Source: Tubulanus polymorphus
Taxonomy: Eukaryota > Nemertea > Palaeonemertea > Tubulaniformes > Tubulanidae
Reading direction: 5' to 3'
DNA length: 64,000 bases
NCBI RefSeq assembly: GCF_964204645.1
Contig: NC_134030.1
Span: forward strand, 2,147,855-2,211,854
Part shown: positions 7,682 to 51,283 of the stretch, in pieces
How the letters are laid out: every line of letters starts with the position of its first letter
Numbering within the stretch: the first letter of the stretch is position 1
The notes under the pieces: model-generated
Database searches by the model: none
What the model was told of the DNA's origin: nothing
The model's input: the letters and a program-made list of their open reading frames with translations, nothing else
Translations under genes and position numbers: made by a program

Positions 7682-7733
7682 AAACGGAGGGAAATAAAAA
7701 CTACTATTTACAAATTTACAATATTTACAAGAA

Positions 7734-7767
<34 letters not shown>

Positions 7768-14399: not shown

Positions 14400-14430
<31 letters not shown>

Positions 14431-17470: not shown

Positions 17471-17633
17471 GATTTCTTCAAAAAATCAAAAAGTAACACG
17501 GAAAGTGCTTATAATTAGTAAGATAACCAAATTTACACACATTTCACACCTATTTATGATTTGTACTTGCGGACGTTTGAAATTAAAACTTGCGCAAACA
17601 GTAAAACGAATATTTTAGGTGAAATTTTCTTAC

Positions 17634-19172: not shown

Positions 19173-19366
19173 GGACAGGCACCAGTCTATCCTGTCAAGC
19201 GATAATATATACTTAAGGCCATATGCACGATTCGTTTTGAATTTGATTATGTTATTCAAACAAGCAATGAAATCCGATTGAATAGAAAAATAAATTTGAA
19301 TTTGGAATAATATTTAATCCTAATCGGCCAACAGCTGCACATGTGAGTTACTTCCGGTGTGGAGCG

Positions 19367-19577
19367 ATGACCCGCCATATTGAAATTGGTAAGTCGTGGA
19401 ATTTGTTTAGAGCTTTTTACCTTTAATTCTTTTCTAACAGCTCAATACGTACCCGGAGATGACAGTAGGATAAACGCTGTATCTAAAACCTACCCAAAAC
19501 CCGGCGTAAAGCAATTATCAAACTCGAATTTTCGACGTATCGTGTCACGTCACATGTGCGTCGTCACGGTCTGGTGA
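19367..19577 (+). CDS. Possible small two-exon gene, unknown protein
   Basis: Upstream ACTTCCGGTG (19350) is an ETS-type promoter motif. Exon 1 coding is 19367-19388 (MTRHIEI plus one base), followed by GTAAGTCG. A 52-bp intron ends in TTCTTTTCTAACAG. Exon 2 starts at 19441, and the split codon gives Ala, keeping the frame: AQYVPGDDSRINAVSKTYPK, then PGVKQLSNSNFRRIVSRHMC, then VVTVW and TGA at 19575. A donor-like CTG-GTGAGC sits at 19573/19574, so the gene may splice onward instead of stopping. AATAAA follows at 19771-19776. The agreement of start, splice phase and promoter motif is suggestive. The family is not recognised and the intron is at the short end. Confidence 0.4.
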
Positions 19578-22560: not shown

Positions 22561-22837
22561 TCACAGAAAAGATAAGTAATATTAGAATATTATAGAAATA
22601 GGAATTTGTCTATAGCTGATAGACACAGTGGGATACTGAGTTATAACCTGTTCAGTTCTAGTGTCTTTCAATTTGGTTTGACAAGTTGTCGTCTGGTCTA
22701 TTGCTCTGTCAGTTTTGTTAGTACATATTGGATATAGGTCTTGAAATAACTTATTATATATGTACCACCAAAACTGACCGAGCTAAGCCACTCAACATCG
22801 TCTCAAGCAAAGTTGAAACGGAAGACGGTTGAATTAA

Positions 22838-23585
22838 GGAAAAGGTTGTTGAAATGAATTGAATTCGGCTCCATGCGTCTCCATCATATATGAAGCTAGC
22901 TCAAGAGTTATGGACCGTTTAGGTTCAGCTCACTTCACATCAGCTCTAGATCAGTTCCGGACACTAACCAGTGAATCAACCTTATTATAGAAACTGAAAT
23001 AATGATAACAGATTCTATATGTATAGATAATGAACCACATCTGAAACCATATTATCGGAAAAATAGAAAGTTGAAAAATGTTTTTTAATTCAGTCTGATT
23101 TGCGTCAGATTATAACTGTAGAAGTTTCACTCATTGTTTCAGTCTAATAGAGTTATAACTGATGTACATGTAACACTGACTGTGTAACACTGCAGTCATT
23201 CGTTCATTTATTCCTCCTCAGTTGGAAGAATGTTTGTTCTCTCATCATCATTAGCGATAAGAATCAATCCCATCCGTCTAACGACAACATCGTAACATTT
23301 CTACTCATCTGATCATAGAGGGAATGAGTAGTATGAGGTTTTGGTATGGAATGGGGCAGGGTATGGTGTAGTTGACAGTTAGGGTAGGATAGGGTAATGT
23401 GATACGGTAAGGTCGGTTTGATGATGCAGGGTTATTTGATGCAGTTGGATTCGATGATCAGTTTAATATAGAACTGGTTGGGGGTAAGTGATGTTTATGG
23501 TAGTGTACGGTGTGTATGTTCGGAGGGTGTATGATAACGGATTGAAAGGTTACTGGTAGAGGGCGGTGCAGTATCATCCTCACTT
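22838..23585. repeat. Left arm of a ~740-bp inverted repeat
   Basis: Runs from AAAGGTTGTTGAAATGAATTG (about 22843) to AGAGGGCGGTGCAG (about 23565). It is the diverged reverse complement of 30775-31515. Matching landmarks: GAATTCGGCTCCATGCGTCTCC, CTAGATCAGTTCCG, GTTGGAAGAATGTTTGTTCTCT, CCCATCCGTCTAACGACAAC and GGTTACTGGTAGAGGGCGG. Confidence 0.85.
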
Positions 23586-29159: not shown

Positions 29160-29545
29160 CATTTGAGAGAGAGGAGAGAGAGAGGGAGAGAGAGAGAGAG
29201 CCATAAAGAACCTGAAGAGTGGGGGGTTTAGTCCAGTGGTCTATTCCTACCTCGACTCAAAAAAAAAGAAAAAAGATATAAAGAGCGGGGTCCGAGAGCA
29301 ATTCGAAGGTTCAGTCCCCTGTCCGCCTAGCGGGTAGGCAGTGGTCTATTCCTACCTCGACTCAAAAAAAAGGTGAGCTTAAAGCCACCAAGCACGAAAG
29401 TGGGGTCCGAAGGGTAGTCCTCTGCTGGCTTAGAGGGCAGGCATTGGTCTATTCTTACCTCACGTGCTTAAAAATGTTCACAAAAAATGGCTATTAAGAG
29501 AGAGAAAGAGATAGTGTGAGAGAGAGTGAGAGAGAGGAGGTGCTA
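29160..29545. repeat. SINE-like duplicated block flanked by GA repeats
   Basis: GGTCTATTCCTACCTCGACTCAAAAAAAA occurs at about 29238 and 29341, with a third variant (GGTCTATTCTTACC) at 29446. GGTTCAGTCCCCTG (29308) resembles a tRNA B box, and the A-runs resemble SINE tails. GA-rich runs stand at 29166-29200 and 29500-29540. Confidence 0.45.
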
Positions 29546-30489
29546 AGTCTCATGTACCGCTGGGCTTTACTTGATACATATATAAGAAGTAATTTACGGT
29601 TTAAACCTTGAATTTACTAACAATTTTTGTGGGTTCAGAGTCTATTTCTCAACAGTTTGCTGTTAACAAGCTGGTAGTAGGGTAAAAACTACCGGTATTC
29701 AGAGATTTGTGAATCAGAAGTTTTGCCGTCATTTGCTTCATGAATCATTCACTTGTTAAAATGAATCATGTGACACACATGTAAAATACTGTTACTGATT
29801 TATCATTGTTTTGATGGTGTCTTAATGTTCAATATCTTGCAGGTATCATCTCCTTGCATTTCGCATAGAATTGAGGAGTAGTTTGAGCGAATGGGAGGCA
29901 TGGAGAGATTTGGCTCAAGATATCTCACTCGTTCGTTTAGGTTTAGTTTGAGATCATCTAATCAGCTTAAGTGTATACATCCTCGACTACTTTTCAACTA
30001 GTAGTTCATCGTAGGTTTTAGACGTCACATCCATAGCTCCTTCCACTACTCGTGAATTTACAATTCATTCCTATCCGATGATGCTATTTATGATGGAATG
30101 TGTTAAAGTAGATGTCTATGTGTTTTCATCTTTTGGTAAATCGTGAAAAAATCTGGCTAATTTGAATCGAAAGCCATTGATTATTATCTTGCGCGGTAAT
30201 GATGGAAAAATTCAAAATACAGTGATCTGGGGGCCCTCCCCTAGAAACATTTTGAAAATTCAATCGCCGGAGATGCGTTTTGGGACCATTTCACGGTCTC
30301 ATTCACAGAAGCATGAGAAGTCGTGAGTCAACCACCTAGTACAGAGAACGACGAGCTGCTACGCGGTTCAGCGTGCTTTTGAAAAGAAATTTTGTTAAGC
30401 AAAAAAGTGGGGCAGCTTCACCCCTTTTCCGACGGCCCTGGTTTTGAAGGGATAGAAGGCATTGAGATGTCTAAAGGGATTGCCTGGAG
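29546..30489. other. Unassigned; possible MITE near 30225-30445
   Basis: A piece from GTGATCTGGGGGCCCTCCCC (30221) to CCCCTTTTCCGACGGCCCTG (30440) has the look of a short nonautonomous element, with partly complementary GGGGGCCCTCCCC / GGCCCTG ends, but no target duplication is clear. No gene is seen. Confidence 0.3.
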
Positions 30490-30774
30490 GTGGCTGAGAG
30501 ATGGATGCCATTTCCACCATACCTATCACTCATCACATCCTGTAGTGTCCTAGCCTCACCCCCTACATCACATCGTGTACCTCCCGAACTACACTACCAA
30601 CCTTCTTCAGACGCCACCCATCCCGACCATTTCTACCGAATTCACCCTAGCCTCAACAACACCAAACATCCTTCCCCCACATCACCCAAACTTACACTTT
30701 CATATTTCTCTGACCATGCCTTACCCTATCCTTAACACTGTACACCAGCCCTTACCCTACACAAACCATACAAT
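30490..30774. repeat. Pyrimidine-rich degenerate repeat
   Basis: C/T/A-rich sequence (ACCCTACACAAACC, CTACACTACCAACC and similar) that is open in two frames (30490-30735, 30575-30889). It resembles the complement of 25050-25150 and 23350-23420, so I treat it as repeat-derived. Confidence 0.5.
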
Positions 30775-31515
30775 CATCACACCTGCACCGCCCTCTACCA
30801 GCAACCTTTCTCTGTTATCATACACCTCCCTAACTATACATTGTACACTACCACATACACCCACCCGAAACAGTTCTATATTAAACTGATCTTCTAATCC
30901 AGCCATATCAAACAACCCTCCATCATCTTACCTGACCTTACCTTACCACAATGTCCTATCCTCCCCTAACGTGTCAACTCCCATACCCTGTCTCATTCCA
31001 TACCCAAGCGCCATAACACTCATTCCCTCTATGATTAGATGAGTAGAAATGTTACGATGTTGTTGTTAGACGGATGGGATTGATTCTTATCGCTAATGAA
31101 CATGAGAGAACAAACATTCTTCAAACTGAGGAGGAATAAATGAACGAATGACTGCAGTTTTACACAGTCAATGTTACATGTACATTAGTTATATCTCAAT
31201 TAGACTGAAACAATGAGTGAAACTTCTACAGTTATAATCTGACACAAATCAGACTGAATTAGAAAATGTTTCACAACTTTCTATTTTTCAGACACTTTGG
31301 TTTCAGATGTGCTTCATTATCTATTCAAATAGAATCTGATATCATTTCATTTCATTTGCTCTGATTAGGTTGATTCACTTGGTTACTGTACGGAACTGAT
31401 CTAGAGCTGATGTGAAGTGAGCTGAACCCAAACGGTCCATAACTCTGAGCTAGCTTCATATACGATGGAGACGCATGGAGCCGAATTCAATTCATTTCAA
31501 CAACCTTTTCTTTCA
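30775..31515. repeat. Right arm of the ~740-bp inverted repeat
   Basis: Diverged reverse complement of 22838-23585, ending with CATTTCAACAACCTTTTCTTTC. The exon-like array begins about 100 bp beyond it. Confidence 0.85.
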
Positions 31516-31609
31516 TATTGATTGAAAGTCCACTGCTCGAGCAAGATACAAACATAGGTGTGCACATTTTGTATGAAGTGAATTTATAAATTTGAAAGTC
31601 TTATTTCTT

Positions 31610-34600
31610 AGTTTGAGAGAAGGATGTCCCCTTGAACATATTTCAACTCCACACGACAAGTGGTATGTATGAAGGTATAATTTCTTGCTTTAGAATCTGA
31701 TAAAAACAATATCATTGAATCTGTTGTTTTCATTTCAGTGTCAAATGTATGAACTAGTAGCTGATTTGAATGGAACTCTACTGTCTGACACTCGTGGTTT
31801 GTATTGAGACTTTTCAGATATTCATATAAAAATAAACAACTTATTTCATCATTAACAATTTTATAATTTTTTTCCTACAGTTTAAAGAATCTGTGAAAGG
31901 CGATGATCTGCTAATTACACTCATGGTTGTGTTGGCTACTGATGAGTGGTATGTATCGTATCTGGAACCAATTTTACTTTGATTTCAACAACTAATTTCT
32001 TATGATTTTCTCCATTTCATTTTCCATTAGAAGGAACTGTGTTATTATGATTTGTCTGAGTGTCCGTTAATGTTAGTTGAACTGTAACTCAGAGAACTGA
32101 ACCATGGATGTGACAACTCCACACAGATGTCATGTATGTATCTGGACAATTTTCATTATCAATGTCTTTCTGTTTTAGTTTTCCTGCAGAAGAATCTGAT
32201 AAATATAATGTTATGGACTTTGTGTTTTTCTTTTTAGTGTCCATCATCATTAGTTTAACTGTAGCCGATAACTTAAAACCTAAACCGAGGATGTAATATT
32301 GCCACAGATATCATGTATGTATCACGACAACTTATGTTATCAACGTCTTTCTGTTTTATTCTTTTTCTGTTCTGCAGAAGAATCATGAATATCATTGAAT
32401 CTGTTATTTTCATTTCAGTGTTCGTCATAATAAGCTGAACACATAAATAATAAACGTACAAACTCCACTGGTAGAGTCACCTACAGACACATGGTATGTG
32501 TATAGAGACAAATTCAATGAATCTGAAATACTTTGTTTCTTAGTTATAAATGTTTTTCCATATTGTTTTAATCTGTTAGGAGATGAACTGAACAAATCAA
32601 CAGTTCAAATCCTCCATCAATAAGTGGTATGTATGAAGACAGAATTTCAACAACTTATTTCATAATTTCCTGCAATAGAATCTGATAAATCTGAATCTGT
32701 TGTTTTCATTTCAGTGTCAATCATTGTTCGTTGAACTGTAAAGAATGAATGAACCAACATCTTATTTGAACTGAACTTTAGAGTCCATGGTTGAGTCAGC
32801 TATAGACATACAGTATGTGGTATGTGGGTATGGAGGCAATTTCAATTTAATTGAAACACTTGTTTCATTATAATTATTTATGATTATTATGATTATCCAT
32901 TTTGTTTTAATCTGTTTAGGAGAAACCTGAACCAAGGATGTTATATTGCCACAGATATCATGTATGTATCACAACAACTTTTGTTATCAACGTCTTTCTG
33001 TTTTATTCTGTTTCTGTTCTGCAGAAGAATCTGAGATGAATATAATGTTATGGACTGAATGTGTTTTTCATTTCAGTTTCCATCAATGTTAGTTGAACTG
33101 TAACTCAGAGAAGTGAACCGTGGATGTTATAACTCCACAGATGTCATGTATGCATCTGGACAATTTTCATTATCAATGAATATCTGTATTTTTCGAAATC
33201 TATGAAATAGATGTCATTGAATCTGTTATCTTCATTTCAGTGTCCTAAGTTGAACAGTAAAGGATAGAACCAATAGCTGAATTGAACTGAACTCCTCCGG
33301 CAATGTTTGAGTCAGCTTCAGATATGAGTGGTATGTGTGTATGGAGACGAATTCAATTTGTGAGAATCTGTGAGATATAAATGTTACAATGTAGAATTTG
33401 TTATTTTCATTTCAGTGTCCATCAATATTAAGCTGAACTGATTCAGAATGAACTTATAGATAATGAACTGAATTGCTGGAGTCAGCTACTACTGGTCTGT
33501 GGTATGTGGTTGGAGTCAGAAACTCATCAATTACTTCATGATTTCTAGTAATATAATCTCAGAGCTGCCAACAGTTACTGATTTCCTGTATTTGTTGTTT
33601 CTACCAGTATTTGATAACAAGAAATACTGATTTGATTTGTTTGATGTGCACATAAATGTGAAAGATGTGACTGATGATCTACCATTGATTGCTGATGAAT
33701 TGAACGTTTTCTTTCACATTTCATTGAAATGTTACTGAAAAAAGCTCAATTTGTTACTGAAAGCACCTCAGAGGTTGGCAGCCCTGTAATCTGATAAATA
33801 AATGTAATAAACAGATTGTTCTCATTTCAGTGTCCGATCAATGTTAGTTACACTATAAGGAATAGACCCAGTAGCTGAATTGAACTGAACTGATCCACAG
33901 TGAATGTTTGAGTCACCTTCAGATATTAGTGGTATGTCTGTATGCAGACAAAATTCTATTTTAACAACTGATTTTGTGTTTTAAATCTTTGAAATAAGTA
34001 GGCCTATAATATCATTGAATCTGTTATTTTCATTTCAGTGTTTGTCATTATAAGCTGAACTGGTAAATGATAAATGTACAAACTCCACTGGTTGAGTCAC
34101 CTACAGACACATGGTATGTGTATAGAGACAAATTCAAAGAATCTGAAATACTTTGTTTCTTAGTTATAAATGATTTTCCATTTTGTTTTAATCTGTTTAG
34201 GAGAAACCTGAACCAAGGATGTTATATTGCCACAGATATCATGTATGTATCACGACAACTTTTTTTATCAACGTCTTTCTGTTTTATTCTATTTCTGTTC
34301 TGCAGAAGAATCTGAGATGAATATAATGTTATGGACTGAATGTGTTTTTCATTTCAGTTTCCATCAATGTTAGTTGAACTGTAACTCAGAGAAGTGAACC
34401 GTGGATGTTATAACTCCACAGATGTCATGTATGCATCAGGACATTTTTCATTATCAATGAATATATGTTTTGTTTTTTCGAAATCTATGAAATAAATGTG
34501 ATTGAATCTGTTATTTTCATTTCAGTGTCCTAAGTTGAACTGTAAAGGATAGAACCAATGGCTGAATTGAACTGAACTCCTCAGTCAATGTTTGAGTCGG

Positions 34601-37600
34601 CTTCAGATATGAGTGGTATGTGTGTATGGAGACGAATTCAATTTGTGAGAATCTGTGAGATATAAATGTTACAATGTAGAATTTGTTATTCTCATTTCAG
34701 TGTCCATCAATATTAAGCTGAACTGATTCAGAATGAACTTATAGATAATGAACTGAATTGCTGGAGTCAGCTACTGGTGTGTGGTATGTGTATATGCAGA
34801 CAAAATTCTATTTTAACAACTGATTTTGTGTTATAAATCTTTAAAATAAGTAGGCCTATAATATCATTGAATCTGTTATTTTCATTTCAGTGTTTGTCAT
34901 TATAAGCTGAACTGGTAAATAATAAACGTACAAACTCCACTGGTTGAGTCACCTACAGACACATGGTATGTGTATAGAGACAAATTCAATGAATCTGAAA
35001 TACTTTGTTTCTTAGTTATAAATGATTTTCCATTTTGTTTTAATCTGTTAGGAGATGAACTGAACAAATCACCAGTTCAAATCCTGTATCAATAAGTGGT
35101 ATGTATGAAGACAGATTTTTAACAACTTACATCATAATTTCCTGCAATAGAATCTGATAAATCTGAATCTGTTGTTTTCATTTCAGTGTCAATCATTGTT
35201 CGTTGAACTGTAAAGAATGAATGAACCAACATCTTATTTGAACTGAACTCTACAGTCCATGGTTGAATCAGCTATAGACATACAGTACGTGGTATGTGGG
35301 TATGGAGGCAATTTCAAGTGATTTCAAACACTTGTTTCATTATAATTATTGTAAATGATTATAAATTTTATTATCCATTTTGTTTTAATCTGTTTAGGAG
35401 AAACCTGAACCAAGGATGTAATATTGCCACAGATATCATGTATGTATGACGACAACTTTTGTTATCAACGTCTTTCTGTTTTATTCTGTTTCTGTTCTGC
35501 AGAAGAATCTGAGATGAATATAATGTTATGGACTGAATTCGTTTTTCATTTTAGTTTCCATCAATGTTAGTTGAACTGTAACTGAGAGAAGTGAACCGTG
35601 GATGTTATAACTCCACACAGAAGTCATGTATGTATCAGGACAACTTTCATTATCAATGAATATCTGTTTAAATTTTTCGAAATCTATGAAATAAATGTCA
35701 TTGAATCTGTTATTTTCATTTCAGTGTCCTAAGTTGAACTGTAAAGGATAGAACCAATAGCTGAATTGAACTGAACTCCTCCAGCAATGTTTGAGTCAGC
35801 TACAGATATGAGTGGTATGTGTGTATGGAGACGAATTCAATTTGTGAGAATCTGTGAGATATAAATGTTACAATGTAGAACTTGTTATTCTCATTTCAGT
35901 GTCCATCAATATTAAGCTGAACTGATGCAGAATGAACTTATAGATAATGAACTGAATTGCTGGAGTCAGCTACTGGTATGTGGTATGTGTGTATGCAGAC
36001 AAAATTCTATTATTTTAACAACTGATTTTGTGTTTTAAATCTTTAAAATAAGTAGGCCTATAATATCATTGAATCTGTTATTTTCATTTCAGTGTTCGTC
36101 ATAATAAACTGAACTGGTAAATAATAAACGTACAAATTCCACTGGTTGAGTCACCTACAGACACATGGTATGTGTATAGAGACAAATTCAATGAATCTGA
36201 AATACTTTGTTTCTTAGTTATAAATGATTTTCCATTTTGTTTTAATCTGTTAGGAGATGAACTGAACAAATCAACAGTTCAAATCCTGTATCAATAAGTG
36301 GTATGTATGAAAACAGAATTTCAACAACTTATTTCATAATTTCCTGCAATGGAATCTGATAAATCTGAATCTGTTGTTTTCATTTCAGTGTCAATCATTG
36401 TTCGTTGAACTGTAAAGAATGAATGAACCAACATCTTATTTGAACCGAGTTCCACAGTCCGTGGTCGCTTCAGCTACTGACATACAGTACGTGGTGTGTG
36501 TATGGAGGCAATTTCAATTGATTTCAAACACTTGTTTCATTATAATTATTGTAAATGATCATGATTTTTATTATCCATTTTGTTTTAATCTGTTTAGGAG
36601 AAACCTGAACCAAGGATGTAATATTGCCACAGATATCATGTATGTATCACGACAACTTTTGTTATCAACGTCTTTCTGTTTTATTCTTTTTCTGTTCTGC
36701 AGAAGAATCTTGAGATGAATATAATGTTATGGACTGAATGTGTTTTTCATTTTAGTTTCCATCGATGTTAGTTGAACTGTAACTGAGAGAAGTGAACCGT
36801 GGATGTTATAACTCCACAGATGTCATGTATGTATCAGGACAACTTATATTATCAATGAATATCTGTTAAAATTTTCTAAATCTATGGAATAGATGTCATT
36901 GAATCTGTTATTTTCATTCCAGTGTCCAAAGTTGAACTGTAAAGGATAGAACCAATAGCTGAATTGAACTGAACTCCTCCAGCAATGTTTGAGTCAGCTA
37001 CAGATATGAGTGGTATGTGTGTATGGAGACGAATTCAATTTGTGAGAATCTGTGAGATATGAATGTTACAATGTAGAACTTGTTATTCTCATTTCAGTGT
37101 CCATCAATATTAAGCTGAACTGATTCAGAATGAACTTATAGATAATGAATTGAATTGCTGGAGTCAGCTACTGGTGTGTGGTATGTGTGTATGCAGACGA
37201 AATTCTATTATTTTAACAACTGATTTTGTGTTTTAAATCTTTAAAATAAGTAGGCCTATAATATCATTGAATCTGTTATTTTCATTTCAGTGTTCGTCAT
37301 AATAAACTGAACTGGTAAATAATAAACGTACAAATTCCACTGGTTGAGTCACCTACAGACACATGGTATGTGTATAGAGACAAATTCAATGAATCTGAAA
37401 TACTTTGTTTCTTAGTTATAAATGATTTTCCAAATTGTATATTAATCTGTTAGGAGATGAACTGAACAAATCAACAGTTCAAATCCTGTAGCAATAAGTG
37501 GTATGTATGAAGACAGAATTTCAACAACTTATTTCATAGTTTCCTGCAATAGAATCTGATAAATCTGAATCTGTTATTTTCATTTCAGTGTTTGCCATAA

Positions 37601-40600
37601 TAAACTGAACTGGTAAATAATTAACGTACAAACTCCACTGGTTGAGTCACCTACAGACACATGGTATGTGTATAGAGATTAATTCAATGAATCTGAAATA
37701 CTTTGTTTCTTAGTTATAAATGATTTTCCATTTTTTTTAAATCTGCTAGGAGAGGAACTGAACAAATCAACAGTTCGAATTCTGTATCAATAAGTGGTAT
37801 GTATGAAAATAGAATTTCAACAACTTATTTCATAATTTCCTGCAATAGAATCTGATAAATAACTGCCATTGAATCCGTTGTTTTCATTTCAGTGTCAATC
37901 ATTGTTCGTTGAACTGTAAAGAATGAATGAACCAACATCTTATTTGAACTGAACTCTACAGTCCATGGTTGAATCAGCTATAGACATACAGTACGTGGTA
38001 TGTGTGTATGGAGGCAATTTCAATTTATTTGAAACACTTGTTTCATTATAATTATTGTTAATGATTATTATGATTATCCATTTTGTTTTAATCTGTTTAG
38101 GAGAAACCTGAACCAAGGATGTTATATTGCCACAGATATCATGTATGTATCTCGACAACTTTTGTTATCAACGTCTTTCTGTTTTATTCTGTTTCTGTTC
38201 TGCAGAAGAATCTGAGATGAATATAATGTTATGGACTGAATTCGTTTTTCATTTTAGTTTCCATCAATGTTAGTTGAACTGTAACTCAGAGAAGTGAACC
38301 ATGGATGTTATAACTCCACACAGAAGTCATGTATGTATCAGGACAACTTTCATTATCAATGAATATGTTTTATTTTTCGAAATCTATGAAATAGATGTCA
38401 TTGAATCTGTTATCTTCATTTCAGTGTCCTAAGTTGAACAGTAAAGGATAGAACCGATAGCTGAATTGAACTCAACTCCTCCGGCAATGTTTGAGTCAGC
38501 TACAGATATAAGTGGTATGTGTGTATGGAGACAAATTCAATTTGTGAGAATCTGTGAGATATAAATGTTACAATGTAGAATTTGTTATTCTCATTTCAGT
38601 GTCCTTCAATATTAAGCTGAACTGATTCAGAATGAACTTAAAGATAATGAACTGAATTGCTGGAGTCAGCTACTGGTGTGTGGTATGTGTGTATGCAGAC
38701 AAAATTCTATTTTAACTACTGATTTTGTGTTTTATAAATCTTTAAAATAAGTAGGCCTAAAATATCATTGAATCTGTCATTTTCATTTCAGTGTTTGTCA
38801 TTATAAGCTGAACTGGTAAATAATAAACGTACAAACTCCACTGGTTGAGTCACCTACAGACACATGGTATGTGTATAGAGACAAATTCAATGAATCTGAA
38901 ATACTTAGTTTCTTAGTTATAAATGATTTTCAATTTTGTTTTAATCTGTTAGGAGATGAACTGAACAAATCAACAGTTCAAATCCTGTATCAATAAGTGG
39001 TATGTATGAAGACAGAATTTCAACAACTTATTTCATAATTTCCTGCGATAGAATCAGTTAAATCTGAATCTGCTGTTTTCATTTCAGTGTCAATCATTGT
39101 TCGTTGAACTATAAAGAATGAATGAACCAGCATCTTATTTGAACTGAACTCTACAGTCCATGGTTGAGTCAGCTATAGACATACAGTACGTGGTATGTGG
39201 GTATGGAGGCAATTTCAATTGATTTCAAACACTTGTTTCATTATAATTATTGTTAATGATTATTATGATTATCCATTTTGTTTTAATCTGTTTAGGAGAA
39301 ACCTGAACCAAGGATGTTATATTGCCACAGATGTCATGTATGTATCACAACAACTTTTGTAATCAACGTCTTTCTGTTTTATTCTGTTTCTGTTCTGCAG
39401 AAGAATCTGAGATGAATATAATGTTATGGACTGAATGTGTTTTTCATTTCAGTTTCCATCAATGTTAGTTGAACTGTAACTGAGAGAAGTGAACCATGGA
39501 TGTTATAACTCCACACAGAAGTCATGTATGTATCAGGACAACTTTCATTATCAATGAATATATGTTTTGTTTTTTTGAAATCTATGGAATAGATGTGATT
39601 GAATCTGTTATTTTCATTTCAGTATCCGAAGTTGAATTGAAAAGGATAGAACCAATGGCTGAATTGAACTGAACTCCTCCGTCAATGTTTGAGTCAGCTA
39701 CCGATATGAGTGGTATGTGTGTATGGAGACGAATTCAATTTGTGAGAATCTGTGAGAAATGAATTTTATAATGTAGAACTTGTTTTTCTCATTTCAGTGT
39801 CCATCAATATTAAGCTGAACTGATTCAGAATGAACTTAAAGATAATGAACTGAATTGCTGGAGTCAGCTACTGGTGTGTGGTATGTGTGTATGCAGACAA
39901 AATTCTATTTTAACTACTGATTTTGTGTTTTGTAAATCTTTGAAATAAGTAGGCCTAGAATATCATTGAATCTGTTATTTTCATTTCAGTGTTTGTCATA
40001 ATAAGCTGAACTGGCAAATAATAAACGTACAAATTCCACTGGTTGAGTCACCTACAGACACATGGTATGTGTATAGAGACAAATTCAATGAATCTGAAAT
40101 ACTTTGTTTCTTAGTTATAAATGTTTTTCCATATTGTTTTAATCTGTTAGGAGATGAACTGAACAAATCAACAGTTCAAATCCTCCATCAATAAGTGGTA
40201 TGTATGAAGCCAGAATTTTAACAACTTATTTCATAATTTGCTGCAATAGAATCTGATGAATAATTGCCATTAAATCTGTTGTTTTCATTTCAGTGTCAAT
40301 CATTGTTCGTTGAACTGTAAAGAATGAATGAACCAACATCTTATTTGAACTGAACTCTACAGTCCATGGTTGACTCAGCTATAGACATACAGTACGTGGT
40401 ATGTGGGTATGGAGGCAATTTCAATTTATTTGAAGCACTTGTTTCATTATAATTATTGTTAATGATTATTATGATTATCCATTTTGTTTTAATCTGTTTA
40501 GGAGAAACCTGAACCAAGGATGTTATATTGCCACAGATATCATGTATGTATCTCGACAACTTTTGTTATCAACGTCTTTCTGTTTATTCTGTTTCTGCAG

Positions 40601-43330
40601 AAGAATCTGAGATGAATATAATGTTATGGACCGAATGTATTTTTCATTTTAGTTTCCATCGATGTTAGTTGAACTGTAACTCAGAGAAGTGAACCATGGA
40701 TGTTATAACTCCACAGATGTCATGTATGTGTCTGGACAACTTTCATTATCAATGAATATCTGTTTAAATTTTTCGAAATCTATGAAATAGATGTCATTGA
40801 ATCTGTTATCTTCATTTCAGTGTCCTAAGTTGAACTGTAAAGGATAGAACCGATAGCTGAATTGAACTGAACTCCTCCGACCATGTTTGAGTCAGCTACA
40901 GATATGAGTGGTATGTGCGTATGCAGACGAATTCAATTTGTGAGAATTTGTGAGATATAAATGTTACAATGTAGAATTTGTTATTCTCATTTCAGTGTCC
41001 ATCAATATTAACCTGAACTGATTCAGAATGAACTTATAGATAATGAACTGAATTGCTGGAGTCAGCTACTGGTGAGTGGTATGTGTATATGCAGACAAAA
41101 TTCTATTTTAACAACTGATTTTGTGTTTTATAAATCTTTAAAATAAGTAGGCCTATAATATCATTTAATCTGTTATTTTCATTTCAGTGTTTGTCATAAT
41201 AAACTGAACTGGTAAATAATAAACGTACAAACTCCACTGGTTGAGTCACCTACAGACACATGGTATGTGTATAGAGACAAATTCAATGAATCTGAAATAC
41301 TTTGTTTCTTAGTTATAAATGATTTTCCATTTTGTTTTACTCTGTTAGGAGATGAACTGAACAAATCAACAGTTCAAATCCTGTATCAATAAGTGGTATG
41401 TATGAAAACAGAATTTCAACAACTTATTTCATAATTTCCTGCAATAGAATCTGATAAATCTGAATCTGTTGTTTTCATTTCAGTGTCAATCATTGTTCGT
41501 TGAACTGTAAAGAATGAATGAACCAACATCTTATTTGAACTGAACTCTACAGTCCATGGTTGAGTCAGCTATAGACATACAGTACGTGGTATGTGGGTAC
41601 GGAGGCAATTTCAATTGATTTCAAACACTTGTTTCATTATAATTATTGTTAATGATTATTATGATTATCCATTTTGTTTTAATCTGTTTAGGAGAAACCT
41701 GAACCAAGGATGTTATATTGCCACAGATATCATGTATGTATCACGACAACTTTTTTTATCAACGTCTTTCTGTTTTATTCTATTTCTGTTCTGCAGAAGA
41801 ATCTGAGATGAATATAATGTTATGGACTGAATGTGTTTTTATTTCAGTTTCCATCAATGTTAGTTGAACTGTAACTGAGAGAAGTGAACCGGGGATGTTA
41901 TAACTCCACACAGAAGTCATGTATGCATCTGGACAACTTTCATTATCAATGAATATCTGTTTAAATTTTTCGAAATCTATGAAATAGGTTTCATTGAATC
42001 TGTTATTTTCATTTCAGTGTCCAAAGTTGAACTGTTTAGGATAGAACCAATAGCTGAATTGAACTGGACTCCTCCAGCAATGTTTGAGTCAGCTTCAGAT
42101 GTGAGTGGTATGTGTGTATGGAGACGAATTCAATTTCTACAAGTGATTTTGTGATTTAATTTCTGAAGAGGAATCTTACAAAGATAAATGTCATAGAGTC
42201 TGTTGTTTTCATTTCAGCGTCCATCATTATCATTAGTTCAACTATAAGGAGTAGAACCATGATGACTCCTCCAGCAATGTTTGAGTCAGCCTCAGATATG
42301 AGTGGTATGTGTGTATGGAGACAAATTCAATTTGTGAGAATCTGTGAGATATAAATGATACAATGTAGAATTTGTTATTCTCATTTCAGTGTCCATCAAT
42401 ATTAAGCTGAACTGATGCAGAATGAACTTATAGATAATGAATTGAATTGCTGGAGTCAGCTACTGGTGTGTGGTATGTGTATATGCAGACAAAATTCTAT
42501 TTTAACAACTGATTTTGTGTTTTAAATCTTTAAAATAAGTAGGCCTAAAATATCACTGAATCTGTTATTTTCATTTCAGTTTTTGTCATTATAAGCTGAA
42601 CTGGTAAATAATAAACGTACAAATTCCACTGGTTGAGTCACCTACAGACACATGGTATGTGTATAGAGACAAATTCAATGAATCTGAAAAACTTTGTTTC
42701 TTAGTTATAAATGATTTTCCATTTTGTTTTAATCTGTTAGGAGATGAACTGAACAAATCAACAGTTCAAATCCTGTATCAATAAGTGGTATGTATGAAAA
42801 CAGAATTTCAACAACTTATTTCATAGTTTCCTGCAATAGAATCTGATAAATCTGAATCAGTTGTTTTCATTTCAGCGTCAATCATTGTATGTTGAACTGT
42901 AAAGAATGAATAGCTGAATTGCCGAATCGAACTCCTCAGTTAGTGGTTGAGTCGCCTTCAGATATTAGTGGTATGTGTTTTAGTGGCTGAAAAAATTCAA
43001 TTTTGTATTTTAATTTCTGAAGAGGAATCATACAAAGATAAATGTTGTAGAATCTGTTGTTTTCATTTCAGTGTCCGTCAATATTAGTTGAACTATAAGG
43101 ATGATAGCTGAATTGAACTGAACTCCTTAGTCAATGTTTGAGTCACCTTCAGCAGATATGAGTGGTATGTGTTTATGGAGACGAATTCAATTACTGATTT
43201 TGTGATTTATTTTCTGTAGAGATTAATGTTATTGAATCTGTTGTTTTCATTTCAGTGTCATTGATTATTAGTTGAACTGTAAGGAGTGAAACCAAAAGCT
43301 GATTTTAAGTGAGCTCCACGGTCGATGTTT
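31610..43330 (+). repeat. Tandem array of exon-like modules with splice signals
   Basis: About 12 kb of modules of 45-110 bp, each preceded by an acceptor (TTTTCATTTCAG, CTGTTTAG, TTCTGCAG) and followed by a donor (G-GTATGTGTG or ATG-TATGTATC), separated by intron-like stretches of about 60-110 bp. Seven module types recur in a fixed order as a ~1.2 kb higher-order unit. The TGTCAATCATTGTTCGTTG module starts near 32719, 35187, 36391, 37895, 39088, 40294 and 41486. Just before the donor most types share one frame: MFESATDMSG, MVESAIDIQYV, TPLVESPTDTW, CYIATDIM, STDVM. Each is preceded by an in-frame stop, so a continuous protein is not encoded. It may be a decayed exon array, a multi-exon noncoding RNA, or a satellite that captured splice sites. 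Confidence 0.75.
33560..33786. mobile_element. hAT-like nonautonomous element inside the array
   Basis: Ends CAGAGCTGCCAAC and GTTGGCAGCCCTG are inverted (CAGRGCTGCCAAC). The flanks repeat TAATCT directly (33554-33559 and 33787-33792). Other array units read through this place (AATAGAATCTGATAAAT) without the 227 bp, giving an empty-site comparison. CAGRG termini are characteristic of hAT elements; only 6 bp of the expected 8-bp duplication is exact. Confidence 0.75.
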
Positions 43331-43385
43331 GAGTTGTACCGGTATGTATTGCGAGCAGATAAAACAGCTTACATTTATAATTACA

Positions 43386-44105
43386 GTGAACCCCCGATAT
43401 ACCGCCCTCCCATTTACCGCCATCCCCGCGCCTGCCGCCAGGTTTTCTCAATGTACATCTCTATCTCGCATCGACTATTGCAACAGTTTGTTAATTGGAT
43501 TATCTGCAGACTTAACGCATAAACTTCAAGTTCTCCAGAATTCAGCTGCACGTTTGGTATCTAGGTCACACAAATTCGACCATATCACTCCAGTTCTTCA
43601 GGACCTACACTGGCTACCTGTTTCTGCAAGAATCCAGTATAAAGTCGCTCTGTTAACGTTCAAGGCATTGAATAACCTGGCTCCAGTATACTTATCCGGA
43701 TTATTACAAGTCTCTGTACCTGTCAGACTTCTATGTTCTGCCAATCAGGAGGACTGGTTGTTCCTATTTTCCGCTTGTCTTTATATGGTGGCAGAACATT
43801 CTCCACATATGCTCCCAGATTGTGGAATAACCTTCTTGCGGACATACCTGACCCCATGTCTTTGTCTTGTGAATCATTCAAGCGAACACTCAAAACCGTT
43901 CTTTTCCCTGCCAGTTACTTATAGTTTCTAGAGGGGCTCATTTGAACTTATATTCTTAAGGAGCCTTGCGCTATATAAATGACAATTTATTATTATTATT
44001 ATTATTATACAAATACATAGGAAAACACCCCCGATATACCGCCATACTCTGATCTATACCGCCAAAATCGTGTGCTCTGATGTGGGCGGTATATCGGGGG
44101 TTGAC
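43386..44105. mobile_element. MITE with CCCCCGATATACCGCC termini, split by a LINE
   Basis: The left terminus GTGAACCCCCGATATACCGCC (43386) and right terminus GGCGGTATATCGGGGGTTGAC (44085-44105) are inverted. An uninterrupted relative of about 158 bp lies at 54150-54307, which shows that the material at about 43468-44007 is a later insertion. The termini resemble pogo/Tigger-type (Tc/mariner) nonautonomous elements; the superfamily is inferred. Confidence 0.8.
43468..44007 (+). mobile_element. 3' fragment of an L2/CR1-type LINE with (TTA)n tail
   Basis: Translation shows the conserved C-terminal end of CR1/L2 reverse transcriptases: RIDYCNSLLIGL, KLQVLQNSAARLVSR, HKFDHITPVLQDLHWLPV, and ALLTFKALNNLAPVYLSGLL. 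After about 43735 the frame shifts by one and continues YGGRTFSTYAPRLWNNLL, then SFKRTLKTVLFPASYL-stop (43924), so the copy is broken. The 3' end GCGCTATATAAATGACAATT with (TTA)n is typical of L2-like tails. No reverse-transcriptase catalytic core is present because the copy is 5'-truncated. Confidence 0.9.
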
Positions 44106-44120
44106 TACATGATTCTGTTA

Positions 44121-44270
44121 TAGTAACTTCACATTACTCGGACATGGCACCGAGTCAGACTTTGGACTAATTCTGACAAAAAAAAATTTTTTTTCTGACT
44201 CCCTTATGCATTTTCCTATTGTTATCCTAAACAATTTTGCTGGTTTGTCCGAGTAAGGCGAGGTCTACTG
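44121..44270. mobile_element. Second pogo/Tigger-like MITE
   Basis: TAGTAACTTCACATTACTCGGAC on the left pairs imperfectly with GTCCGAGTAAGGCGAGGTCT...ACTG on the right, flanked by TA on both sides. The interior contains an A8/T8 run. A right half of the same element recurs at about 51195-51231. Confidence 0.6.
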
Positions 44271-44289
44271 TATTTTACCACAAAACAAT

Positions 44290-44720
44290 ATCTTATAAAT
44301 ATCAGTGAATCTGTTATTTTCATTTCAGTGTTCGTCATAATAAGCTGAACTCGTAAATAATAAACGTACAAACTCCACTGGTTGAGTCACCTACAGACAC
44401 ATGGTATGTGTATAGAGATTAATTCAATGAATCTGAGAATACTTTGTTTCTTAGTTATAAATGATTTTCCATTTTGTTTTAATCTGTTAGGAGATGAACT
44501 GAACAAATCAACAGTTCAAATCCTGTATCAATAAGTGGTATGTATGAAGACAGAATTTCAACAACTTATTTCATAATTTCCTGCAATAGAATCTGATAAA
44601 TAATTGCCATTAAATCTGTTGTTTTCATTTCAGTGTCAATCATTGTTCGTTGAACTGTAAAGAATGAATGAACCAACATCTTATTTGAACTGAACTCTAC
44701 AGTCCAAGGTTGAGTCAGCT
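44290..44720 (+). repeat. Continuation of the exon-like module array
   Basis: Modules TGTTCGTCATAATAAGC, GAGATGAACTGAAC and TGTCAATCATTGTTCG follow in the same order as in the main array after the MITE/LINE interruption. This shows that the insertions split a continuous array. They lead directly into the first 3.2-kb segmental copy. Confidence 0.8.
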
Positions 44721-45379
44721 ATAGACATACAGTACGTGGTGTGTGGGTATGGAGGCAATTTCAATAAATTTGAAACACTTATTTCATTACTATTATCAAT
44801 GATTTTCCATTTTGTTATAATCTGTTTAGGGGATGACAAATTGCCAGAGATGACCATGGATCAGTCGACATGTATGTATCAGGACAATTTTTGTTGTGTA
44901 GAGTAATCTAGAGAGGGATAAATCTTTAAGAATCTGTCATTTCTAATTTCAGTGTCCATCATCATGAGTTAATACGAATATCTGATTTGAACTGAACTAG
45001 GCAGTCATTCAACAGTCGAGATGCCTGTCACATATATAAGTTACGTATTTACTGCCAGCAGACAATTAAAACAACTTGCATCATTAATGATTAACTGTGA
45101 ATGAACTTGGGAACAGTCGTGCTCCTTAATACTATCAGTTACAGCCATATTTTGATATAATATCTGTCTAAACCTCTATCTCAATCCTTAACTTAATAAA
45201 TACTAATTCTTCCTTCTAACCTTCTACTAATTGTATGAGTCAAGAGATGGTTGTCATTGATAGAATTAGGTCCGCTATACTGACTAATTGTCATAATTTA
45301 TAATACCACTGCATACTATTGACTCTCCGTTTCAGTTTAATTGATTCAATAAGTCACCAACTTGTTATTTTCATTTCAG

Positions 45380-46479
45380 TGTCAATCATTATTAGTTGAT
45401 CTGCAAAGACTCAAACTGAATTCACTGCTGCTACAGATACACAATCAATCAATACAGTTCAATCAACTTTGAGACACTTATTTCTTTTAAATCGGCTAAG
45501 TGGTATGTATTAACACATAGGGGCGGATGTAACAAAATTGAAAAACTGGTTAAAATTGATATGTCATTCTACGTATTTTCAGCTACAAGTACCAGTTCCC
45601 CATTATTTCTACCAAATTCTGACCACAATCAATTCTTGAAAGACTCCTGGACAATGAAGAAGAAAGATTCATACAAACATAAGGTACTAGTAATTTTATT
45701 AATGAATGATTTTACTTATTATAAGTACAAGATTATTGACATAATTTCTTTAGTTATAGTATAAGTTAAAGTAAAGCTTATACTTTCATAGATTAATAGG
45801 TATGTTTATTGAACATTTTAATCAGTAAATTGGTGCTAATATTAGATGACAATAGTAGTTGATGAATTCATTATTGAAAGTACTTAGATCTTTTAGAATC
45901 GTATTCATTAAAGGTGCCGCCGCACACCAGATGGCACCACGTTATGGTCATTTTTACTACTAGACTGGTTGCCTGATGTGATAAATACAATACAATGAAC
46001 TTTATTCACATGTAATAACTGATACTAACCGCGATCATTTGTACCCATGTGGCACCCGTGTGAACAGTTTATCCGGGCCAAATTTGGCCCGACCAAAAAC
46101 GTCTGACCAAGCCGAGCCACGGGACAAATGATTGCGGTTGAAATGCAACTTGTTCCTGAAACTGCTCACGCTTTCAGTTTGTTGAGCGTTGTTTTAGTAG
46201 TCAAGGTTAGCGTGTGAGCCAGTCGGGCCAATTGGCTCGGGTCAGATCTGTGCTTGGTCTCTGGGCCAAACGTATACGTGTGATCGCAGCCAATATCTAT
46301 ACAAGCGCAGCCAAAACCTGCAGGCTGCATGATTCTGCGTAGTAGCTTGTCGAATTCTTCGCAACTGGCAACCAGATCTATATAGACCTATCGGAATCAT
46401 CGCTTGCCGCGTTAGCAGAGCTGTCTCGTGTAGTTAATAAGTGTTTATGTATTAATTGTAGGAATGCCTGGTGATGTAG
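45380..46479 (+). CDS. 3' end of an unknown multi-exon gene, copy A
   Basis: Exons 45380-45502, 45583-45683 and 46462-46479 with standard signals (TTTTCATTTCAG, AGTG-GTATGT, TATTTTCAG, AAG-GTACTA, TTAATTGTAG). In one frame they join without breaks from an in-frame stop near 45400: SAKTQTEFTAATDTQSINTV, then QSTLRHLFLLNRLS, then ATSTSSPLFLPNSDHNQFLK, DSWTMKKKDSYKHK and ECLVM-stop. The AATDTQ part matches the ESATD-like motif of the upstream modules. The first exon alone is also open in another frame for CQSLLVDLQRLKLN. I do not recognise the family. The 5' exons would have to come from the module array, but no continuous frame links them. Confidence 0.45.
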
Positions 46480-46537
46480 AGCTTGAAGTTCATAGAAGCT
46501 GAAAACAGAGAAACCGGCTCTGAATCTATTGTGTATA

Positions 46538-46543
46538 AATAAA
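46538..46543 (+). terminator. Polyadenylation signal AATAAA, copy A
   Basis: AATAAA about 60 bp after the ECLVM stop, followed by ATTCTTGTGTTGTGTTGTTTATT, a GT-rich element of the kind that lies downstream of cleavage sites. Conserved in copies B and C. Confidence 0.65.
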
Positions 46544-47119: not shown

Positions 47120-47907
47120 GATCCACAGAGACTAAAAGTGATCTATAGTGTTTAAATCTAATTACCAAAGTTCAGACAAGTCTTTAAATATTGCTAATTT
47201 GTGAAATAGAGAATAGACTGGACTTAATCTGGTGTTAAGACGTCAGACTGCTAGTCTTGAATCCATTGAGTCATGACTGCACCTTGGCCAAGGTCTTTTG
47301 ACTTCATTAAATATCAGTTGCAGCTACCTCTTGACGTAATCTAACCTTTTATCTCATCTATCCTAACATAATCCTTAACTGCTTGATTATCCACCAATTT
47401 CACAAGTCAAAAGGTAGTTGTCATTGATTAAATAGATGTAGTCACTGCGAAACAATTGTAATTAATTTGAAACTTGATGCATTGATGCTCACTCTTAAGA
47501 GTGTTCACTTTCAGATCCACAGAGACTAAAAGTGATCTATAGTGTTTAAATCTAATTACCAAAGTTCAGACAAGTCTTTAAATATTGCTAATTTGTGAAA
47601 TAGAGAATAGACTGGACTTAATCTGGTGTTAAGACGTCAGACTGCTAGTCTTGAATCCATTGAGTCATGACTGCACCTTGGCCAAGGTCTTTTGACTTCA
47701 TTAAATATCAGTTGCAGCTACCTCTTGACGTAATCTAACCTTTTATCTCATCTATCCTAACATAATCCTTAACTGCTTGATTATCCACCAATTTCACAAG
47801 TCAAAAGGTAGTTGTCATTGATAAAATAGATGTAGTCACTGCGAAACAATTGTAATTAATTTGAAACTTGATGCAATGATGTTCACTCTTAGAGTGTTTA
47901 CTGTACG
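47120..47907. repeat. 394-bp near-identical tandem duplication
   Basis: GATCCACAGAGACTAAAAGTG begins at 47120 and 47514; I see almost no differences between the two units. Each holds the GTTAAGACGTCAGACTGCTAG motif and TTGACGTAATCTAACC. Near-identity implies a recent duplication compared with the more diverged 3-kb copies around it. Confidence 0.9.
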
Positions 47908-48561
47908 TGGTATGTGTGTATGGAGGCAATTTCAATTAATTTGAAACACTTTATTTCATTACTATTATCAATGATTTTCCATTTTGTTATAATCTGTTTA
48001 GGAGATGACAAATTGCCAGAGATGACCATGGATCAGTCGACATGTACCGGTATGTATCAGGACAATTTTTTGTTGTGTAGAGAAATCTAGAGGGATAAAT
48101 CTTTAAGAATCTGTCATTTCTAATTTCAGTGTCCATCATCATGAGTTAATACGAATATCTGATTTGAACTGAACTCGGCAGTCATTCAACAGTCGAGATG
48201 CCTGTCACATATATAAGTTATGTATTTACCGCCAGCAGACAATTAAAACAACTTGCATCATTAATGATTTACTGTTTGTGGATGAACTTGAGAACAGTCG
48301 CTGCTCCTTAATACTATCAGTTACAGCCATATTTTGATATAATATCTGTCTAAACCTCTATCTCAATCCTTAACTTAATAAATACTAATTCTTCCTTCTA
48401 ACCTTCTACTAATTGTATGAGTCAAGAGATGGTTGTCATTGATAGAATTAGGTCCGCTATACTGACTAATTGTCATAATTTATAATACCACTGCATACTC
48501 TTGACTCTCCATTTCAGTTTAATTGATTCAATAAGTCACCAACTTGTTATTTACATTTCAG

Positions 48562-49676
48562 TGTCAATCATTATTAGTTGACCTGCAAAGACTCAAACTG
48601 AATTCACTGCTGCTACAGATACACCATCAATCAATACAGTTCAATCAATTTTGAGACACTTCTTCTAAATCTTTCTTTTAAATCGGCTAAGTGGTATGTA
48701 TTAACACATAGGGGCGGATGTAACAAAATTGAGAAACTGGTTAAAATTGATATGTCATTCTACGTATTTTCAGCTACAACTACCAGGTCCCCATTATTTC
48801 TACCAAATTCTGACCACAATCAATTCTTGAAAAACTCCTGGACAATGAAGAAGAAAGATTCATACAAACATAAGGTACTAGTAATTTTATTAATGAATGA
48901 TTTTACTTATTTATTGAACATTTTAATCAGTAAATTGGTGCTAATATTAGATGACAATAGTAGTTGATAAATTCATTATTGAAAGTGCTTAGATCTTTGA
49001 ATCGTATTCATTAAAGGTGCCGCCGCACACCAGATGGCACCACTTTACGGTCATTTTACTACTAGACTGGTTGCCTGTGTAATAAATACAATACAATGAA
49101 CTTTATTCACATGTAATAACCGATTCTAACCGCAATCATTTGAACCCATGTGGCACCCGTGTGAACAGTTTATCCGGGCCAAATTTGGCCCGACCAAAAA
49201 CGTCAGACCAGGCCGAGCCACAGGACAAATATTGCGTTTGAATTGCAACTTGTTCCTGAAACTACTCATGCTTTCAGTTTGAGCGTTGTTTTAAGTATCG
49301 GTTAGCGTGTGAGCCAGTCGGGCCAATTGGCTCGGGTCAGATCTGTGCTTGGTCTCTGGGCCAAACGTGTGATCGCAGCCAATATCTATACAAGCGCAGC
49401 CAAAGCCTGAAGGCTGCATGATTCTGGCATAGCTTGTTGAATTCTTGATTCGCAACTGGCAACCGGAACCCAGTTCCACAGTTGTGATTTGACTCAGAGT
49501 TAACTCATTGAAAATTAACTAATTTTAACTCAAGAGTTAACTCTAACTCATGACTGTGGAACTGGACCCGGATCTATATAGACCTATCGGAATCATCGCT
49601 TGCCACAGTTAGCAGTGCTGTCTCGTGTAATTGATAAGTGTTTATGTATTAATTGCAGGAATGCCTGGTGATGTAG
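48562..49676 (+). pseudogene. 3' end of the unknown gene, copy B (frame disrupted)
   Basis: Exons 48562-48693, 48774-48874 and 49659-49676 have intact splice sites. In the frame used by copy A the first exon reads TAATDTPSINTVQSILRHFF and then hits TAA, because of a short insertion (TTCTAAATC) at about 48663. The second exon is intact and close to copy A (ATTTRSPLFLPNSDHNQFLK, NSWTMKKKDSYKHK), and the last again gives ECLVM-stop. AATAAA is at 49735-49740. It is probably non-functional unless another frame is used. Confidence 0.45.
49465..49570. mobile_element. ~100-bp MITE with CCAGTTCCACAGT termini
   Basis: CCCAGTTCCACAGTTGTGA (about 49469) and TCATGACTGTGGAACTGGA (about 49548) are inverted ends. 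The same place in copies A (about 46375) and C (about 53010) reads GGCAACCAGATC...TATATAGACC without the insert, giving two empty sites. The interior is rich in GAGTTAACT palindromes. The motif CCCAGTTCCACAGT also occurs at 18577. Confidence 0.8.
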
Positions 49677-50027
49677 AGCTTGAAGTTCACAGAAGCTGAA
49701 AACAGAGAAACCGGCTCTGAATCTATTGTGTATAAATAAATATATTTATTCTTGTGTTGTGTTGTTTATTCAGTGGGATCTGTGGTGATTCAACCACTTG
49801 ATCCTGCAAGTGTTTTTGCCATCCAAACCCCGAATCCATGCGCGTCGTTTTGACCGACGAAAGTTTTAAAGTGATACACAAATCTTAAGGAAATCTAAAG
49901 ACTAGTACCGGTAATAAGATTTATTGATCACTTTCTAAACTTCAGACAAGTCTTTAATTGATGTTAGATTGGTTAGATAAAGAAAAGACTGGACTTAGGC
50001 CCAGTTGCACAGTCGTTACTTGATCTG

Positions 50028-50359
50028 AGGCCTTTTTATGAACCAGCAAAATCGAAATAGATTAGCTATTTAGATTATATAGCCGATTAGTGTCAATTAG
50101 CATAACCGGGTATGTTGGTTGATAAAAACGCCAGGTAGAAATTATTCAATTATGGCCCAGTCAGCAGCGACTTCTACCGAGAACACCATATCGGTTGGAT
50201 TAGATAATCGGCATACTTGCTCGCCGAGCGAGTATGCCGAGTATGCTAATCGATTATGATAACCAATGTTCATAAAAATGACGGATTATGACATAATCCA
50301 TGCTCATAAAAACGTTTTGCATACTCGAATATACTAATCGAGTGTTCGTAAAAAGGCCT
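50028..50359. mobile_element. 332-bp MITE with AGGCCTTTTTATGAAC termini and 3-bp duplication
   Basis: The left end AGGCCTTTTTATGAAC and right end GTTCGTAAAAAGGCCT match at 15 of 16 positions. CTG stands on both sides (50025-50027, 50360-50362). The empty site TTGATCTGGTCTTAAGACG occurs in related blocks (50865, 53455, 53977). A 3-bp duplication is expected for PIF/Harbinger or CACTA superfamilies; the usual Harbinger TWA target is not seen, so the family stays open. Subterminal inverted pairs (CGATTAG, GAGTATGC) occur inside. Confidence 0.85.
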
Positions 50360-51283
50360 CTGGTCTTAAGACGTCAGACTGCTAGTCTTGAATCCATTGA
50401 GTCATGACTGCACCTTGGCTAAGGTCTTTTAACTTCATTAAATATCAGTTGCAGCTACCTCTTGACGTAATCTAACCTTTTATCTCATCTATCCTAACAT
50501 AATCCTTAACTGCTTGATTATCTACCAATTTCACTAATTCAAAAGGTAGTTGTCATTGATAAAATAGATCATATAGTCACTGCGAAACAATTGTAATTAA
50601 TTTGAATTTTGATGCATTGATGTTCACTCTTAGTGTTTACTATCATCATCATCATCAGCAACCGTCTGGGTCGGTTGCTCTAAGGTTGCGCTTTATCCAG
50701 CGGATGAATACCTTAGAAGAACGGACTTAATTGTCTCTATGTCAGACCCACAGCGACTGGTAATAAGATTTATTGATCACTTTCTAAACTAAAGACAAGT
50801 CTTTAATTGATGTAAGATTGGTTATAGAGAATAGATCGGACTTAGGCCCATTTGCACAGTCGTTACTTGATCTGGTCTTAAGACGTCAGACTGCTTGTCT
50901 TGAATCCATTCAGTCATGACTGTGTTTAATTCTATTATTAGCTGTAGCTACCACTTGACGAATGATCTAACCTTTTATATCATCTATCCTAACATGATAA
51001 ATACTAATCATTCACTGCTTAATTTTCCACCAATTTCACTGAAGTCAAAAGGTATTTGTCATTGATAAAATAGATATAGTCACTGCGAAACAATCGTAAT
51101 TAATTTGAAACTTGATGCATTGATGTTCACTCTTAGGTAGTTTACTTTCATCTAAGATTTATTGTTATATACCGCCATACTCTGTACCTATGCGGGCTGG
51201 TTTGTCCGAGTAAGGCGAGGTCTACTGTATTTTACCACAAAACAATATCTTATAAATATCAGTGAATCTGTTATTTTCATTTC

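Follow-up and report, generated by a model that had tools for sequence, protein, structure and literature searches.

The window analysed here is a stretch of 64,000 nucleotides (nt) from the nemertean Tubulanus polymorphus (contig NC_134030.1, positions 2,147,855 to 2,211,854), and it carries on its forward strand an array of 70 exon-like modules, each with its own splice acceptor and splice donor (31612..45502). With somewhat better than even confidence, the array is regarded as a multiplied exon cassette in one unit of a dispersed RNA polymerase II (Pol II)-type family, whose product would probably be a spliced and polyadenylated non-coding RNA. Units of this family have in common an exon-1-like block followed by GTAAGT, a conserved block with a long inverted arm on either side, short modules bounded by AG and GT, and a polyadenylation (polyA)-like end. 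The original prediction, made from the letters of the window, had offered three readings of the modules. A giant multi-microexon non-coding RNA fits best of the three, judging from the sequence context, because the array lies between an exon-1/GTAAGT block and a polyA-like end that recur together elsewhere. A satellite expanded from one exon-intron pair describes the route but is incomplete, as the expansion would have taken place within a unit resembling a gene, and simple members of this unit survive. A set of alternative terminal exons giving short tails is disfavored, since no convincing coding frame was found upstream.

The sites were picked by pattern, which gave 73 acceptor-like and 74 donor-like sites and hence the 70 acceptor-donor modules. 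The acceptors are pyrimidine-rich and often read TTTTCATTTCAG, and the donors are GTATGT-like. The median acceptor-to-acceptor spacing of 170 bp bears out the expected dozens of bracketed modules every 170 bp or so. Module bodies measure 42–123 nt (median 75), a slightly wider range than the 45–110 bp first proposed, and are separated by spacers with a median of 97 nt. The modules run on slightly beyond the end proposed for the array at 44720. When the window was searched with four exact acceptor 12-mers, matches outside the array lay at 51274 and 52018 on the + strand, both in flanking 3' units, and at 13655 on the − strand.

Within the array, the module list confirmed seven module types in a fixed order (T6-T7-T1-T2-T3-T4-T5), which recur as a higher-order repeat with a period of about 1.2 kb (32419..42579, + strand). 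Complete copies start at 32419, 34891, 36093, 37589, 38792, 39990 and 41188, the last of which has an additional T4-like module, and partial copies are found at 34039, 37291, 42580 and 44329. The complete copies thus number seven, and the "at least eight" of the original prediction is reached only when partial copies are counted. Pairs of units differ by 2.5–6% in exons and by 4–11% in introns. As a tandem array with higher-order units, the array has the form of a satellite.

In its setting, the array is not a free-standing satellite and sits inside a gene-like unit repeated across the genome. In the window, this unit runs from an exon-1-like block with GTAAGT through inverted arms, a conserved block and the exon-like modules to an AATAAA/GT-rich end. 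The exon-1-like block (19348..19388, + strand), delimited by similarity to related blocks, reads CTTCCGG ... CCGCCATATTGAAATTG and is followed by the GTAAGT donor at 19389. In the simple copies C5, C7 and C10, the block reads CTTCCGG...CCGCCAT[AG]TTGAAATTTG and is again followed by GTAAGT, and it is the left point at which the shared sequence of these copies begins. Nineteen rows are related to the window block, itself included. The best of the others has 90% identity (C2:20.78M), 12 have 69–71% over most of the query, four have 83–85% over query positions 11–89 alone, and one shorter row has 71%.

The left inverted arm (22833..23571, − strand) is a reverse copy of the right one (30783..31516, + strand), with 88% identity over 744 alignment columns, and the arms have counterparts at simple members. 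Most simple members have, between the exon-1-like block and their modules, inverted arms of about 790 bp, and the exon-2 acceptor and donor fall within the arm. Such arms would leave part of the primary transcript double-stranded. Upstream of the modules, the conserved block (29300..30220, + strand) was delimited by genome similarity search. The terminal exon-like segment (46462..46543, + strand) was recognized by matches elsewhere in the genome and has AATAAA at 46538 with a GT-rich tract downstream. The 3' part of the unit is present three times, at 44591-47119 and, according to self-alignment, in two further + strand copies at 47899-50027 and 51247-53754 (together 47899..53754), with further AATAAA copies of the terminal segment at 49735 and 53171. 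The window unit would start at 19.35 kb and end at about 46.56 kb or, with a later polyA-like end, near 49.76 or 53.2 kb. A candidate coding exon at 45582-45687 was rejected as a repeat, as its frame of 33 amino acids had three genome matches, all in the window's own 3' copies. A 394-bp tandem repeat (2.7 copies) occupies 46821-47902, beyond the first polyA-like end.

Searches of the whole genome (267.8 Mb; the first 12 contigs measure 11.5–32.1 Mb, the thirteenth 0.24 Mb) revealed how widely these parts are dispersed. A 311-base query from the array gave 74 matches, at the window locus and on contigs 2, 3 and 6. Among the best 40 of 165 candidates, the block 29300-30220 was found at 18 places with 90–100% identity, including the window, and at other places with 74–89% identity in one or more pieces. 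The AATAAA/GT-rich end has at least 37 genome matches. The exon-1-like block was counted at 20 places, obtained from 22 rows after dropping a second piece at C2:21.82M and a 47-base match at C6:22713094, which lies 5.8 kb upstream of a counted place. Among the matches listed, 19 of these 20 places are followed within 36 kb, on the same strand, by a polyA-like block, and within 32 kb downstream the right arm occurs at 19, the conserved block at 18 and the left arm at 16; the left arms of the window and of its sister copy at C2:20.79M were found by direct alignment. The distance from the exon-1-like block to the polyA-like end is 2.9–9.2 kb at 14 of the 19 places and 17–27 kb, to the first end, at the other five. 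At C8:11888377 (L049, C8:11888101-11888700, − strand), the block, GTAAGT and the shared downstream stretch are present, with no module unit found downstream; this lone block may be a parent or an orphan promoter.

The copies are scattered along the contigs. Among the same best 40 of 165 candidates, the nine C3 copies are mostly 44–76 kb apart, except for one pair at 31 kb and a single wide gap of about 506 kb, and the seven C6 copies besides the window are spaced by at least 65 kb. The places are biased toward chromosome ends: with contigs treated as chromosomes and cut-offs set after the places had been seen, 13 of 21 clusters fall in the outermost 2.5 Mb, which make up 0.229 of the genome (p=1.5e-4), and eight of 21 in the outermost 1 Mb, which make up 0.092 (p=3.4e-4).

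The number of modules per locus was counted with profile hidden Markov models (HMMs) of the seven types; matches below 40 columns and five near-duplicate loci (C3b, C6_1601, C6_1697, C6_1762 and C6_629r) were left out. There are three modules at L033, five at C2_4735, six at L034, six in two tandem units at L032, 8–10 at five C6 loci, 11–12 at two C3 loci and 22 at C2:20.79M; at L035 (C8) the search gave zero modules. The window reaches 82, more than the 70 picked by pattern, as the HMMs also counted modules of the 3' copies and diverged ones in the flanks. With predicted counts from 3 to about 80 across loci, the array is therefore the far end of one range of module number and not a separate kind of sequence.

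The splice signals appear to be kept. In the array modules, all 61 splice AGs are intact, compared with 367 of 407 other AGs (p=0.005), and so are all 62 splice GTs, compared with 570 of 609 other GTs (p=0.04). In 83 diverged modules, the splice AG is intact in 75/78 and other AGs in 279/455 (p=1.4e-11). When a shift of up to 12 nt from the expected module end is tolerated, 56 of 61 modules outside the higher-order array have a donor-like site, and random positions at five of the loci give 0.12–0.24 under the same tolerance. An alignment of whole units (six or seven units), which is freer of the bias that comes from selecting on splice motifs, has variation at 0/49 sites of the core AG, the core GT and the last three exon bases (p=0.001–0.002), with 56–63 of 492 other exon sites and 71–74 of about 440 intron sites varying. 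The signals, which had been described as equally constant with the module bodies, are thus somewhat more constant than these. An apparently strong constraint on the exons (p=1e-7, 9e-5) was discarded, since gap columns and the T5-T6 intron, which has insertions between units, had inflated it.

The composition of the array resembles that of real genes, with a GC content of 0.38 in exons and 0.27 in introns and a T content of 0.28 and 0.43, and seven other loci show exon-intron differences of the same sign. One unit has 16 copies of the pentamer TGAAC in its 515 exon nt, where shuffles average 0.6 and reach 4 at most, and the pentamer is absent from the 6199 nt of array introns. This excess may be taken as a lead toward function, not as proof.

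As for coding potential, 55 of the 70 modules have stops in all three frames, so the earlier statement that each module has stops is true of these, and the remaining 15 are open in at least one frame; among the 42-nt modules, six of nine are open in two. The longest open run across the spliced modules is 82 codons compared with a mean of 86 in mononucleotide shuffles, no excess, which agrees with the expectation that no protein runs through the modules. Only 8 of 26 and 6 of 20 indels between simple members have lengths divisible by three. Among the frames open in three aligned simple members (12 longest per strand), third positions are not markedly enriched in changes, and the strongest tendency is about 6 of 12 changes. 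Ten window open reading frames (ORFs) searched against Pfam gave no domain above the cut-off, the sole weak match being DUF374 (E 0.097). From the lack of a long spliced frame, the non-triplet indels, the third positions and the Pfam result, the repeated unit is therefore probably non-coding. Guest RNAs were sought as well. Rfam gave no match in the window at the gathering score, and at a lax threshold 28500-36100 gave six matches, all below the gathering score (E 1.4–4.6). A tRNA search of four related loci gave nothing above threshold, no RTGATGA C box was found in introns shorter than 300 nt, and no pre-miRNA (microRNA precursor)-like folding was found in the seven exons and seven introns of one unit (z −2.1 to 1.7).

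Several observations weigh against a spliced and maintained RNA. Motifs served to pick the modules, and these in turn to train the HMMs, so that the AG and GT retention counts lean toward intact sites. In the diverged modules, the strict GT column is intact in 48/61 compared with 483/660 other GTs (p=0.45), which is no excess. In the shift-tolerant test of acceptors, which corresponds to that of donors outside the higher-order array, an AG lies within 6 nt in 73/74, but random positions give 0.48–0.60 and the test is weak. Exons of the array are only marginally less variable than introns (0.11–0.12 vs 0.16–0.17, p=0.02–0.05), and there is no difference among five C6 copies (5/398 exon and 18/1231 intron sites variable) or four C3 copies (5/763 and 9/1188). 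Simple members carry TGAAC just once or twice per locus, the pentamer occurs in introns elsewhere (three in 2429 nt in C2, one in 672 nt in C6), and its excess is partly due to shared descent. At sixteen C3 and C6 copies that have the polyA-like end, genome searches found the exon-1-like block at none, although the copies examined carry modules (including L009, L010 and L014-L016 on C3 and L020-L024 on C6); these copies may start elsewhere, have a start that diverged beyond recognition, or be inactive. The original prediction would have been undermined by splice sites that change as fast as the rest of the monomer. This is not so for the acceptors, while for donors in the diverged copies the strict test is without excess and only the shift-tolerant test gives one. 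On the retention and variation tests together, maintained splicing is therefore moderately supported and a constraint on exon sequence is not shown.

The same observations bear on the other ways in which the array could have arisen. It is rather unlikely, though far from negligible, that the array is an inert intronic satellite, in which the cassette of a once-spliced gene was passively copied by unequal exchange, the motifs persist through youth and the locus is now unspliced. The tandem, higher-order and young character of the array, the exon bodies without clear constraint, the background level of the strict donor column in diverged copies and several other minisatellites within the unit would all suit it. 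Core splice positions are nevertheless invariant while their neighbors vary, AG is kept in diverged modules whose exon identity by group is 0.75–0.90, for which youth is no explanation, and promoter-like and polyA-like ends persist. That the unit is instead a mobile element with long inverted arms, the modules being internal repeats, appears quite improbable. Its occurrence at 41 places on eight contigs, among the matches listed, and the arms at simple members speak for a transposable element; at the one locus tested (C5), however, the outer ends are without inverted similarity (best E 0.26), the outer limits vary between subgroups as in segmental duplication, and the ten ORFs are again without a Pfam domain above the cut-off. 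No transposase frame was found among these ORFs or the aligned simple members, and non-autonomous elements would lack one too.

There is a slim chance that the locus serves primarily as a source of hairpin RNA, its arms folding into long double-stranded RNA that feeds small-RNA silencing and the array being a by-product, and this may coexist with the spliced non-coding RNA. At the 16 of 20 places noted above, as well as in the window and at C2:20.79M, the left arm does separate the exon-1-like block from the modules, and in simple members the arm takes in the exon-2 splice sites, but the arms would be mostly inside intron 1 and nothing ties their number to module number. That the array supplies a coding gene with alternative terminal exons is highly improbable. 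Short tails exist, and some modules lack stops in one frame or more; the stops in all frames of most modules, the missing long spliced frame, the three aligned members without a convincing shared coding frame and the Pfam result all contradict it.

If the array is indeed a multiplied cassette of a spliced non-coding RNA, the repeated unit would be transcribed, and whole exon-intron cassettes would be added by unequal exchange or slippage. Each added cassette would bring its own acceptor and donor, leaving the pre-RNA spliceable, and growth would be tolerated as there is no reading frame to break. The mature RNA would then be a polymer of short UGAAC-rich exons, of about 5.2 kb from the array, and perhaps a repeated protein-binding platform.

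Some known systems share part of this layout. In satellites with higher-order repeats, such as alpha satellite, monomer types also follow a fixed order within a larger period, whereas the monomers of the window array are splice-flanked modules in a promoter-to-polyA unit of which simple members survive elsewhere. Coding arrays of alternative exons, the Dscam kind, have open frames through their exons, which the window array lacks. The host transcript of the C19MC miRNAs consists of tandem repeated non-coding exons and introns; the one window unit folded, with its seven exons and seven introns, differs in having no pre-miRNA-like structure. The nearest kind is the human SNHG14 transcript, for which one account states 148 exons (PMC9858946), with the IPW-A/IPW-G exon arrays in the Prader-Willi syndrome (PWS) region and introns that host SNORD116/115 (PMC4742849, PMC9858946). 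As described there, it likewise has repeated non-coding exons in one long unit, and the window array, known from its letters alone, has the corresponding repeated exons with acceptor and donor and no protein. The introns of IPW/SNHG14 host small nucleolar RNAs (snoRNAs), whereas such guests were sought and not found in the window, by Rfam at the gathering score, C box or hairpin in the parts tested; also unlike the IPW/SNHG14 described, the window array has introns of about 97 nt and modules in a seven-type higher-order unit. With guest snoRNAs not found, the array is therefore not filed as a member, and the likeness is architectural. The DDX11L transcripts, a family from a rearranged part of DDX11, are multicopy at many chromosome ends (PMC2705379), to which the end bias of the present family corresponds at the level of sequence; the abstract of that study mentions no exon amplification (PMC2705379). 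No description of a layout like that of the window was found in the literature covered, mostly titles and abstract openings.

Other features surround the unit. The array is broken up at about 43395..44110 (strand not assigned, limits set by eye) by an insertion that has CCCCCGATATACCGCC as inverted ends and contains an ORF; this ORF, which had no Pfam match, presumably resembles a fragment of a long interspersed nuclear element (LINE). Positions 1-12100 hold several satellites, including repeated GA-rich units, a 62-bp repeat (22.7 copies) at 8774-10182 and a 23-bp repeat at 11747-12097. A direct duplication links 13466-14789 and 16139-17472 (88–91% identity). Downstream, a gene with WD40-like exons lies at 55600-63000 on the + strand, and two of its six ORFs have weak Pfam matches (THOC3/WDR3/WD40), below cut-offs.

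It is a tentative and rather doubtful proposal that the family represents lineage-specific non-coding genes that evolve by the addition of ready-spliced exons, with the copy number of a short UGAAC-rich exon, from 3 to about 80 modules under one kind of promoter, as the evolving trait and an inverted-repeat hairpin in the primary transcript. If this is true, exons that multiply without the constraint of a reading frame would offer a path to repeat-scaffold RNAs other than the expansion of microsatellites or transposons. Members with 3, 5–6, 8–12, 22 and about 80 modules persist, so the stepwise growth of a many-exon, probably non-coding gene would be readable in one genome and testable for selection. 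The family would thus bear on the question of whether exon number in non-coding RNAs reflects drift or function.

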